A stretch of 64,000 nt of DNA from Thermalbibacter longus (lineage in GTDB: Bacteria > Chloroflexota > Chloroflexia > Thermomicrobiales > Thermomicrobiaceae). Each line of letters opens with the position of its first letter. Position 1 is the stretch's first letter. The notes beneath the pieces were generated by a model. The model did no database searches. It was not told where the DNA came from and was given only the letters and a program-made list of their open reading frames with translations. Location: the NCBI RefSeq assembly GCF_023806485.1, contig NZ_JAMSLR010000008.1:1-64000 (forward strand). Reading direction: 5' to 3'. The position numbers and the translations under genes were made by a program. Of this stretch, positions 61,002 through 64,000 are shown one piece after another.

Positions 61002-61171
61002 CGAATGCGAGTCGCCCGGTGAGGATTGTGCCGAAGTCACTCGGTTGATCAGAGAATCGGCCACGCCGGGCACTTGTCGTGTCAGGGCTGGGTAGCTGGG
61101 CAAGCAGGGCGATTAGTCAAGTGCTCGAATCATGGCGCCCCGTGCTGGCTGCGCAGCCGCGATAGCTGAAG

Positions 61172-61223
61172 GGTCGGGTAGCTCAGTCGGTAGAGCACGT
61201 GACTGAAAATCCGCACCCGACGC
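61172..61223 (+). pseudogene. truncated tRNA-Phe-like remnant lacking variable and T arms
   Basis: Acceptor GGTCGGG (61172-61178), D-arm and a CTGAAAA anticodon loop (GAA) are followed directly by CGCACCCGAC, whose CCCGAC (61216-61221) still pairs with the acceptor. The variable loop and T-arm are absent. The junction falls in AAATC, a sequence shared by tRNA anticodon and T arms, so a microhomology deletion is likely. Confidence 0.75.
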
Positions 61224-61244
61224 ACTTCCGGCCCTCGATGGCCT

Positions 61245-61318
61245 GGCTGGGTAGCTCAGTCTGGTAGAGCAGCGGACTGAAAATCCGTGTGTCGGCGGTT
61301 CAAATCCGCCCCCAGCCA
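61245..61318 (+). tRNA. tRNA-Phe (GAA)
   Basis: A 74-nt tRNA with acceptor GGCTGGG/CCCAGCC, anticodon loop CTGAAAA (GAA) and T-arm GGCGG-TTCAAAT-CCGCC. CCA is not encoded. It marks the left edge of the accessory region and is a plausible integration target. Confidence 0.97.
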
Positions 61319-61319
61319 C

Positions 61320-61355
61320 CGGACACCACAGGCGGCCCGACTCCGCCGGTGTCCG
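61320..61355 (+). repeat. long hairpin directly after tRNA-Phe
   Basis: CGGACACC (61320-61327) pairs with GGTGTCCG (61348-61355), and inside it GGCGG pairs with CCGCC. No T-tract. It is the first of four consecutive hairpins up to 61468. Confidence 0.55.
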
Positions 61356-61367
61356 CGTCAGTCGCCG

Positions 61368-61396
61368 GCCCTGGCACCTCGCCAGGGCTCTTTCTC
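61368..61396 (+). terminator. rho-independent-type terminator of the tRNA cluster
   Basis: An 8-bp perfect stem, GCCCTGGC at 61368-61375 and GCCAGGGC at 61381-61388, loop ACCTC, followed by TCTTTCTC. It probably ends tRNA-Phe transcription. Confidence 0.65.
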
Positions 61397-61401
61397 CCAG
61401 T

Positions 61402-61468
61402 TGACAGCAGAATTCGACGCCGATTCTGCTGTCATTCCCCTGTCAGGCAATCCGACACCCGACAGGGG
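61402..61468. repeat. two consecutive dyads upstream of the HNH gene
   Basis: A 12-bp inverted repeat, TGACAGCAGAAT (61402-61413) and ATTCTGCTGTCA (61423-61434), is followed by CCCCTGTC (61437-61444) and GACAGGGG (61461-61468). Both contain the GACAG/CTGTC word that is enriched through this element. They may be operators or leader structures. Confidence 0.5.
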
Positions 61469-61516
61469 CAACGCTACGGCACGAGCCTTACTGCTGTCAA
61501 GAGGAAGGGAAGGCCG

Positions 61517-62050
61517 ATGCTGCCAGACGACCTTGCGGCGCTCTACGGCGAAGAGGGCTTAGGCCAGCGGCTGCTGTCTCGCGTCGTCTACGACCTTCGC
61601 CGGCCAGACCTTGAGCTTGGCCCCTGCTGGATATGGACAGGCGCGGTGACCAGTCGCGGCTACGGCTGTCTCACGCTGCAGCGCCGCAGCGGCCCCAGGC
61701 GGCTGAGCGTCCATCGCCTGGCCTTGGCCCTCTGGTCAGACTTCGATCTTGACGGCAGTCTTCAGGCGCTGCATCGCTGTGACCAGAAAGCCTGTATCAA
61801 TCCGCAGCACCTCTACGCCGGCACGCCGTCAGACAACATGGCCGATGCCTACGTCAGCGGCCTTCTCAAGCTGCCAGAGCGCCATGCCTCGCTCTTGAGT
61901 GAGGCTGAGGTCATCGACATCCTCAGGCTACTGCTGGACGGCTGTACGATGGCAGAGGTAGCCCGGCGCTACGGCGTCAGCCACGAGACGATCAGGGCTA
62001 TCCGTCATGGCCGGTCTTGGAAGCGTGTCCTTCAGCGCCAGCCGGCCTAG
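61517..62050 (+). CDS. HNH endonuclease with C-terminal helix-turn-helix
   Basis: A 177-residue phage-type HNH protein. CWIWTG and GYGCLTL precede the core VHRLALAL, LHRCDQKACINPQHLYAGTPSDNMADAY, which has the HNH zinc and catalytic residues (H, C, C, N, H). The C-terminal VIDILRLLLDGCTMAEVARRYGVSHETIRAIRHGRSW is a resolvase-like HTH. The ATG at 61517 follows GGAAGGGAAGG; the longer upstream frame runs into tRNA-Phe and is rejected. Such proteins are common in phages and mobile elements as nicking or homing nucleases. Confidence 0.88.
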   Translation: MLPDDLAALYGEEGLGQRLLSRVVYDLRRPDLELGPCWIWTGAVTSRGYGCLTLQRRSGPRRLSVHRLALALWSDFDLDGSLQALHRCDQKACINPQHLYAGTPSDNMADAYVSGLLKLPERHASLLSEAEVIDILRLLLDGCTMAEVARRYGVSHETIRAIRHGRSWKRVLQRQPA

Positions 62051-62057
62051 CAGCATG

Positions 62058-62085
62058 ACGACAGCCCGCCGAAGCGGGCTGTCGT
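62058..62085. terminator. 12-bp perfect hairpin after the HNH gene
   Basis: ACGACAGCCCGC (62058-62069) and GCGGGCTGTCGT (62074-62085) with loop CGAA. It is eight bases after the HNH stop. There is no strong T-tract, so termination is likely but not certain. Confidence 0.55.
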
Positions 62086-62134
62086 GACAACAGGACAGGG
62101 CTACTGCGTCACGCCGAGAGAACAGGCGGCGTCT

Positions 62135-62344
62135 CTAGATCGCTTGCGGCTGATACAGCCGGCGGCGAAGCGCCTTCGTGTCAAGCTCCAGCCGATCAGC
62201 CAGGGCAAAGGCCGTCTCATACGCCTTGGTCGCCAGGGTATAGGCGGCGTATAGCTCTTCGTCATACTCCGGTGAGCACTCGGTAGCGCCGATCAGGTCA
62301 TGCAGCGTCTGCAACAGCCGGTAAGCGTCTTCGTGAGTCATCAT
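62135..62344 (-). CDS. small hypothetical protein of the element
   Basis: A 69-residue helical protein starting MMTHEDAYRLLQTLHDLIGATE. AAAGGA lies just upstream of the double ATG at 62344/62341. No recognised family. Inverted CAGGACAGGGC repeats (62091-62101 and 62366-62376) flank it. The regular helix-forming sequence and the Shine-Dalgarno support coding. Confidence 0.55.
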   Translation of the reverse strand: MMTHEDAYRLLQTLHDLIGATECSPEYDEELYAAYTLATKAYETAFALADRLELDTKALRRRLYQPQAI

Positions 62345-62674
62345 GCATCCTTTCTGATGCCTCAGGCCCTGTCCTGTCGTCATGAGGAAGTGTACCAGAG
62401 AACCTTCTGGATGTCAAGAGTCTTTTTCGAGTACTTGTAGTGTGTAGACAACATTATCATCTTTACTGTAGTCAACAGTCACAGAAGAAGTCATCTTAGC
62501 GATGAAGACAGCCAGTATTCTGTTGTCAGATCGTGACAGTGAAGTTGTCTATCGGATGGACAGCCGCTGTCTGGCTGTGCTGTCCAAGGCAAAAAACGCC
62601 ATTTTCAAACCTGGGTTTTCCCATGCAGACGCGGAAAACGCGAAAAAAAACTAATCGAGTCGAATTCGTGGGAA

Positions 62675-62692
62675 TTTAGCTCAGAAGCTAAA
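62675..62692. repeat. 7-bp dyad in an AT-rich stretch
   Basis: TTTAGCT (62675-62681) and AGCTAAA (62686-62692) with loop CAGA, in the most AT-rich part of the non-coding region (about 62590-62720). An AT-rich stretch with dyads would suit an origin, but no iterons or initiator gene are seen. Confidence 0.4.
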
Positions 62693-62874
62693 AATCCTGA
62701 AAATTTCGTCGGGAAAGCTTCTGAGGGCCGCAGGTCACGAGCCTGCCGTCATCGGCTGAAGTTTTGACCTACTCTCCCCAGTCAAGCAGCCTAAGACGAA
62801 TTCGGACATTCGGCCAGATTTCGGCCATCGGCTATGTGGCCGAAATCCACCTCGCAGAACCCGCGTACAGACGC

Positions 62875-62890
62875 GGAATCTTAAGATTCC
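62875..62890. repeat. 16-bp perfect palindrome
   Basis: GGAATCTTAAGATTCC reads the same on both strands. CCGCGT-ACAG-ACGCGG overlaps its left side, and several TTCGGCCA/TGGCCGAA pairs lie nearby (62810-62960). Confidence 0.5.
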
Positions 62891-62948
62891 GGCCATTCGG
62901 CCACTTCGGCTTAAGAAGATACAAGCTGTAAATGGCCGAAAAGATTTA

Positions 62949-63001
62949 CTCGGTGAATCGGCGCTGTCATCGTGAGGCTTCACGTCATCCGATTCACCGA
63001 G
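62949..63001. repeat. nested 13-bp inverted repeat (cruciform-like)
   Basis: CTCGGTGAATCGG (62949-62961) and CCGATTCACCGAG (62989-63001) are perfect arms. Inside, CGTGA (62971-62975) pairs with TCACG (62980-62984). It is the largest dyad in the window and lies in non-coding DNA. Confidence 0.65.
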
Positions 63002-63195
63002 GCGAAGAAGTCTCTTGACTTGAGTCTAGCTTGATTAGTTGGACAGGGCTTGGTGATAGCAGGAGACTTCAGTCAAGTATGTTATCCCTGTCAGAGAAGA
63101 TAGCTACACGATTAGCGACTAGACAAGGCTGTGTCTAGTTGAAGACTAAGACCAAGATAGAAGACCTGTCAGAATAGCCAAGAGGACAACGTTTA

Positions 63196-63412
63196 CCGGC
63201 GTCGCTAGTTAAATTAAGCGACGCCGGCTTAGTCCAGAGACGAAGCCTTCGAGAAGACAGCCGAAGGAATCCTGAGGCTTCGATACCGGTGTCGCTGTCA
63301 TAATCTAGCGACACCGGGCTTCTTCCTGAGACGGCGAAGCGATAGAGACAGCCGCTGTCCTGAAGCCTGAGGCCTCGATGCCGGCGTCGCGAATCTCATA
63401 CAGCGACGCCGG
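63196..63412 (+). repeat. array of three hairpins spaced 90-95 bp apart, with covariation
   Basis: H1: CCGGCGTCGCT (63196-63206)/AGCGACGCCGG (63217-63227). H2: CCGGTGTCGCT (63286-63296)/AGCGACACCGG (63307-63317). H3: CCGGCGTCGC (63381-63390)/GCGACGCCGG (63403-63412). The loops differ, but the stem is kept; H2 changes one base on each arm so that pairing is preserved. Each is followed by a similar GGCTTC..TCC..GAGA sequence. No ORF covers them. Confidence 0.7.
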
Positions 63413-63499
63413 GCTTCATCCGGAGAAGACGACCACAGGAAGAAGCCGGATGCCGGCGTCTGTCATCCTGAGAATCCGCGTCTTGACGCGGAAGAAGCC

Positions 63500-63537
63500 T
63501 TGGGACGGCAAAAATTGTGGTATATATTAGAGGGGTC
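63500..63537 (+). promoter_or_regulatory. promoter repeat P1
   Basis: TTGGGA (63500-63505), 17 bp, TATATT (63523-63528), followed by AGAGGGGTC. The spacer holds AAAAATT and GGTA, shared with P2 and P3. Confidence 0.7.
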
Positions 63538-63671
63538 TCTTCCCGCCGGCATCCGGAAGACAGCCGCTGTCCTGACAGGCTGAGGCTGTAGCTGCGTCCT
63601 GACGCGGTTTCTGACCGGACATCTTGGCGCTGGCAACAGACCTGTTATCCAATAGGACTAGGCCGGCGACG

Positions 63672-63709
63672 TTGGGAGCGCAAAAATTGCGGTATATATT
63701 AGAGGGGTC
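63672..63709 (+). promoter_or_regulatory. promoter repeat P2
   Basis: TTGGGA (63672-63677), 17 bp, TATATT (63695-63700), then AGAGGGGTC. The spacer includes the near-dyad CGCAA-AAA-TTGCG. The initial transcript can fold GGGG with a downstream CCCC. Confidence 0.7.
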
Positions 63710-63831
63710 GTTTTCTATCCCCTACGTCGCCTCGGCGGCGTAGTCAACGCCGGCGTCTTCCCCCTGTCGCCTGCTCGGCCAGAGCGCCTGTCAGCCCTCG
63801 AACACTTCCGCATGACGACGCGGGAAAACGC

Positions 63832-63869
63832 TTGGGAACCCAAAAATTCCGGTATATATTAGAGGGGTC
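63832..63869 (+). promoter_or_regulatory. promoter repeat P3
   Basis: TTGGGA (63832-63837), 17 bp, TATATT (63855-63860), then AGAGGGGTC. GAGGG can pair with a CCCTC a few bases downstream. Confidence 0.7.
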
Positions 63870-63940
63870 TTTTCCTGCAGCCCTCCCGTGGCCGAGCTTG
63901 ACCGCCTGTCCACCTTGCCCATCCCGACGCTGAAGCCGGC

Positions 63941-63978
63941 GTGGGAGGGAATTATTTCCGGTATAGAGTAGAGGGGTC
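63941..63978 (+). promoter_or_regulatory. promoter repeat P4 (diverged)
   Basis: GTGGGA (63941-63946), 17 bp, TAGAGT (63964-63969), then AGAGGGGTC. The same spacing and downstream block as P1-P3, but weaker boxes. The region 62384-64000 contains no ORF that I can support apart from these elements. Confidence 0.6.
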
Positions 63979-64000
63979 TTCATCCCGAAACCTCGCCTGA

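Follow-up and report, generated by a model that had tools for sequence, protein, structure and literature searches.

In T7-like phages, the tandem early promoters A1 to A3, which are of host type and lie on the same strand, stand ahead of the early genes, and copies of a T7 promoter need not have their spacer and start sequence in common. In P4, the CI RNA pairs with sites in the leader, and transcription terminates before the genes. P4 is mentioned in excerpts of PMC7567579, which also describe, for the PLE satellites, a noncoding region of ~3 kb beside a marR-like gene, with the origin in the right quarter. According to the corresponding excerpts of two further papers, this region contains several repeat types and RepA_N iterons that converge on poly-A (PMC7145576), the iterons being three in number, ~30 bp long, and semi-palindromic (PMC8263062). 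For the capsid-forming PICIs, the parts of PMC10690885 and PMC10803314 considered here give a set of capsid, protease, portal, connectors, terminases, and HNH.

In this study, we analyzed a promoter-like repeat from Thermalbibacter longus that occurs in five same-strand copies at and just beyond the end of a 64-kb window (that is, the whole stretch of DNA that was analyzed) and that lies in a small integrated element. Like A1 to A3 of the T7-like phages, its candidate host-type promoters share one strand, are about 100 to 170 bp apart, and are followed by a noncoding leader and then by genes; unlike in T7, the array conserves ~34 bp, belongs to an integrated element rather than a lytic phage, and has a terminator before the first gene. 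P4 offers the parallel of a satellite operon behind a noncoding leader with termination ahead of the genes, though its mechanism relies on an RNA that pairs with leader sites. As in PLE, to the extent that the excerpts describe it, a long, repeat-bearing noncoding region has a leftward gene on one side and, on the other, a marR/MerR-like gene followed by rightward genes, but instead of three ~30-bp iterons and a RepA_N initiator we find promoter-like copies 109 to 172 bp apart, and none of the 10 ORFs scanned matches RepA_N. With the capsid-forming PICIs, as portrayed in the parts of PMC10690885 and PMC10803314 cited above, the locus has in common a small integrated element with an integrase, an HNH-type protein, and its own HK97-type capsid gene, whereas portal, protease, and large terminase are absent from the 10 ORFs scanned and the length is 8.8 kb compared to an average of 14 kb.

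Results

The integrated element spans 8,813 bp (positions 61212 to 70024, with 61212 to 64000 inside the window) and is bounded by a 45-bp duplication, the att core, which comprises part of a tRNA-Phe gene and its upstream edge (61167 to 61211 and 69980 to 70024). In a congener (G010:C209), the left and right flanks join at a single 45-bp segment, that is, an empty site. The genes are, in order, an HNH-type protein, a leftward 82-amino-acid (aa) ORF with no matches, the noncoding region, a MerR-like helix-turn-helix (HTH) protein, an HK97-type capsid protein (65061 to 66263, plus strand), an excisionase-like second HTH protein, three small ORFs with no matches, an AAA_25 ATPase with an HTH (67651 to 68637, plus strand), and a tyrosine integrase (68788 to 69861, minus strand). 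The HNH-type protein was assigned by PHROGs, its C-terminal HTH matching in Pfam below the cut-offs, and the 72-aa HTH protein has a weak small-terminase match (E value of 9.4e-5) beside its excisionase matches. The capsid and the HNH-type protein are the only members of a capsid and packaging set among the 10 ORFs scanned. Searches of solved structures returned nothing convincing for the AAA protein (best E value of 0.024, a designed protein) or for the HTH (best E value of 0.034, TipA). Of the features expected of a satellite, we see the integrase, the att core, the small size, and the empty site; we use "satellite" as a working name, and the element may possibly be a reduced or decayed prophage.

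Several further observations concern the element as a whole. A complete second tRNA-Phe gene lies inside it (61245 to 61320), differing in sequence from the tRNA-Phe at the right end. Repeated ATTCTGCTGTCA words near both ends (61403 to 61445 and 69903 to 69946) are likely arm-type sites of the integrase, and this paired pattern occurs in 1 of 61 genomes of the order, its own. CTGTC/GACAG is about five times as dense in the element as in the host DNA of the window (8.5/kb compared to 1.7/kb), with 45 CTGTC and 30 GACAG on the plus strand of 61177 to 70027 against 15.0 in total expected from host counts, and with 13 occurrences of CTGTCAG/CTGACAG against 0.1 expected. The density peaks in noncoding parts of the element. 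Since a maximal-order Markov model built on the element itself predicts about the observed number, the enrichment extends to shorter words. The same genome has a further HK97-type capsid gene, 42% identical to that of the element, on another contig (contig C14, L021:9466-10737, minus strand), where it possibly marks a prophage or a second element.

The array lies in a noncoding region of 1.85 kb (62384 to 64234, with 62384 to 64000 inside the window). Its copies, all on the plus strand, are P1 (63500 to 63545), P2 (63672 to 63717), and P3 (63832 to 63877), each a promoter-like block of the form TTGGGA-17-TATATT; the variant P4 (63941 to 63986), GTGGGA-17-TAGAGT; and P5 (64060 to 64105), on the same contig outside the window. 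The positions, shared orientation, and spacings that an earlier note on this DNA gave for P1 to P4 are all borne out, and the repeats are real, but their number, stated there as four, is five because P5 lies past the window end; the start-to-start distances from P1 to P5 are 172, 160, 109, and 119 bp. Each block is ~46 bp long, and orientation and hexamer spacing are constant, with no indels, in all five. The consensus over the 46 aligned positions is tTGGGa..g.A..A.TT.cGGTATA.A.TAGAGGggtCtttt.C (upper case, invariant), and conservation extends from the −35 element to about +10. In a leave-one-out weight matrix, the five copies score 39.9 to 60.8 bits, compared to at most −6.9 elsewhere in the 9.1-kb element stretch. 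The copies form two subtypes, P1 to P3 and P4 to P5. Block positions 7 to 10 vary, and the flanks are largely unrelated, with partial likeness immediately upstream of P1, P3, and P5 (P1 and P3 are 78% identical across 80 nt); this combination probably reflects selection on the conserved positions rather than recent copying. A 13-bp inverted repeat surrounds P1.

The hexamers and 17-bp spacer that had been read as a σ70 promoter hold for P1 to P3, each of which matches the consensus at 9 of 12 positions, but less so for P4, with just 7 of 12; P5, with the same spacing, matches at 8. When the columns of the motif were permuted, the summed score was equaled in 38 of 4,000 cases (~1%), and three copies at 9/12 were reached in 43 of 4,000. 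In dinucleotide shuffles of the individual copies, ~3% equaled the score of P1 to P3, compared to 35% for P4 and 15% for P5. The 9.1-kb stretch contains five σ70-like sites, three of them P1 to P3, against 1.4 ± 1.1 in shuffles. P4 and P5 are changed at −10 positions 3 and 5, where σ70 tolerates change, while −10 positions 1, 2, 4, and 6 and −35 positions 2 and 3 are invariant. As for the method itself, the host DNA of the window has 9 such sites in 8,831 intergenic bp versus 4 in 52,169 coding bp, counts that are uncorrected for base composition, and the host DNA right of the element has 1 in 3,965 intergenic bp versus 4 in 26,935 coding bp, a weak contrast. These data support rather than prove promoter function. 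On the other side, the invariant TGGG and GGTATA.A.TAGAGG exceed what σ70 requires, and given this conserved motif of ~34 bp, a further DNA-binding factor is likely to act at the block.

No plus-strand ORF of at least 60 aa overlaps 63500 to 64000, and the longest one wholly between P1 and the terminator described below has 39 aa. The statement that no ORF lies between the repeats is therefore accurate for the plus strand at this length, but on the minus strand a 107-aa ORF (63744 to 64067) crosses P3 and P4 and enters P5. Neither this ORF nor any of five further frames in the noncoding region has a Pfam or PHROG match at an E value of ≤0.1, and among 400 genomes of the phylum the ORF matches itself and an overlapping, stop-containing frame on the same repeats, with nothing in the 399 others; lacking domain match and relatives, it is probably mechanical, a by-product of the repeats. 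P1 to P3 share the plus-frame reading LGxQK(L/F)xYILEGS, in separate short ORFs and differing frames. A coding repeat, which the earlier note had named as a finding that would overturn its interpretation, was rejected on account of the missing domain match, the missing relatives, and this splitting of the copies over short ORFs and frames.

The highest A+T content lies left of the array, at about 62300 to 63300. Hairpins are strongly enriched on both strands of 62384 to 63260 (z scores of −7.09 and −9.93, 20 shuffles each), a pattern that speaks for inverted repeats in the DNA more than for an RNA encoded by one strand. Within 63196 to 63412, three 32-nt hairpins of the form CCGGYGTCGC-N12-GCGACRCCGG are spaced 90 and 95 bp apart, the middle one with a C-to-T/G-to-A double change that preserves pairing. 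Across the noncoding DNA of the element, 14 of 31 plus-strand and 10 of 31 minus-strand windows have a z score of ≤−3, compared to 2 of 49 per strand in host intergenic DNA; the gaps rich in inverted repeats include 61220 to 64234 and 64466 to 65060, with the P zone as an exception. There, eight 160-nt windows are unstructured (z scores of −2.0 to +1.1). For the 795-nt stretch from 63440 to 64234, which takes in the terminator and the inverted repeat around P1, the z score is −2.47 for the plus strand, where 1 of 20 shuffles does as well, and −3.75 for the minus strand, where none of 20 does. Folds of GAGGGG with CCCC can be drawn, as proposed earlier, but shuffled sequence folds just as well as the first 60 nt of each of the five putative transcripts (z scores of −0.40, −1.66, +0.82, +0.57, and +0.35). 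In Rfam, the 9.1-kb stretch yields two tRNAs above the gathering score and no other family.

Downstream of P5, a plus-strand intrinsic terminator (64155 to 64197) consists of a GC-rich stem of 12 bp, two of them G-U pairs, and, after two further bases, a run of six T. In a test for plus-strand hairpins before a T run, its energy was equaled in 0 of 300 shuffles of 63500 to 64234, and −18 kcal/mol was reached by 1 of 300. A general terminator scan found 7 sites compared to 4.9 ± 2.3 in shuffles, which is not above chance, and caught just a short part of this stem. No plus-strand terminator of comparable strength was found between the copies. From the end of the T run, 37 nt lead to the ATG of the 76-aa MerR-like HTH gene (64235 to 64465, plus strand), with AGGAGG upstream of the ATG. 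This gap leaves no room for another promoter, so that the HTH gene, by the anatomy of the locus, is probably transcribed from the array through the terminator, which may then act as an attenuator.

Within its genome, the motif is confined to the element. At up to 3 mismatches, the genome contains the five copies and three 3-mismatch matches, compared to 2 for the control, and 157 other genomes of the class yielded 14 matches in 12 genomes, all with 3 mismatches and equal in number to the 14 of a reversed-pattern control; a host-wide motif was therefore rejected. The noncoding DNA has no relatives in 20 other genomes of the family. Element DNA matched 26 of 400 phylum genomes, its own included, in a search of low sensitivity with two candidates scored per genome, and among the matches listed none from another genome falls in the noncoding region of the array. 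Searches of plasmids and of phage DNA found no relative, and a search with the HTH protein none. In IMG/VR, an exact 18-mer occurs in one contig, within an 815-aa ORF, and of two other patterns, one had no match and the other six single ones; the one match in genome_contigs, inside a 112-aa ORF on an A+T-rich archaeal metagenome-assembled genome contig, was taken as chance. There is thus no convincing second copy of the motif in phages, plasmids, IMG/VR, or genome_contigs, collections that may omit records of the same or very near genomes. At the protein level, the capsid has relatives in 346 phage records, all below 60% identity, and in 3 of 61 genomes of the order, including its own; the AAA protein has them in 19 of 158 class genomes, including its own, with the others among the matches listed at ≤41% identity; and the integrase has them in 19 of 21 family genomes, including its own, the best other one, at 49%, having no related element in the flanking DNA examined. 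Among IMG/VR proteins, neither capsid nor integrase has a relative, and the AAA protein has one, at 28% identity.

Discussion

The part of the earlier interpretation that fits best is that of a clustered operator/promoter region; the modules are promoter-like, noncoding, equally oriented, and part of a mobile element. To the more specific explanation that promoters arrayed in tandem, together with an attenuator, stand before the rightward genes of this small, satellite-like integrated element, we attach an even chance. The same promoter module would be repeated in all five blocks; RNA polymerase, initiating at several or all of these, would proceed rightward through the noncoding leader and reach the strong terminator ahead of the MerR-like HTH gene, so that the genes beyond would be made solely via read-through or antitermination. 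We favor promoters partly because all five copies face the gene cluster with constant hexamer spacing. Since the block exceeds the need of σ70, a regulator from the element or a helper phage probably also recognizes it.

The main rival is that the blocks are iterons, bound by a replication initiator, and the noncoding region is the origin of the element. We keep this reading, although we consider it unlikely, because of a similarity in layout to the noncoding region of PLE: here, too, repeats lie beside a MerR-like gene, each ~34 bp long and with an A-rich core. However, the spacing of 109 to 172 bp is not iteron-like, closely spaced direct repeats are absent, no RepA_N protein was found in the ORFs scanned, the most A+T-rich zone lies left of the array rather than in it, and the A-tract dyad is insignificant, being reached by 1,855 of 5,000 column permutations. 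That last result also weakens the idea, which we regard as even less likely, that the blocks are operators for a regulator such as the MerR-like or excisionase-like HTH protein, regardless of promoter activity, and form a repression or immunity region. MerR proteins bind promoter spacers, the first gene encodes a MerR-like HTH, and the motif is both longer than σ70 needs and restricted to the element, yet, at 76 aa, the HTH protein is small for asymmetric sites of 34 bp. CTGTY does occur 30 to 44 bp upstream of all five copies. No shift of 1,850 reproduces this at that distance, which was picked after seeing the data, but 35 of 617 do so when the 15-nt interval may lie anywhere, and the link is therefore not relied on.

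Independent small noncoding RNAs in tandem, one per block, as the earlier note proposed, appear very doubtful. No genes separate the copies, termination after P5 would yield 3′-coterminal RNAs of about 100 to 660 nt, and satellites, according to the excerpts of PMC7567579, produce abundant noncoding RNAs. However, all five starts fold like shuffles, the sequences downstream of the copies are mostly unrelated, tRNA is the sole Rfam family at gathering score, and the single strong terminator follows the last copy, with none comparable between copies, which favors one leader with stacked starts. Finally, it is conceivable, if quite unlikely, that the ~34-bp block is a promoter for the RNA polymerase, σ factor, or activator of a helper phage, copied five times; the satellite would then sense and amplify helper infection at transcription start, gated by the attenuator.

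Returning to the tandem promoter array with its attenuator, we see it as most likely the on-switch of the element, unusual in layout rather than new biology. The host group, Thermomicrobia, is not named among the literature matches listed. If the blocks are promoters, five extended modules and an attenuator would form a compact switch heading the genes of a tiny element, and should the motif be that of a helper phage, it would offer a handle for locating that phage.
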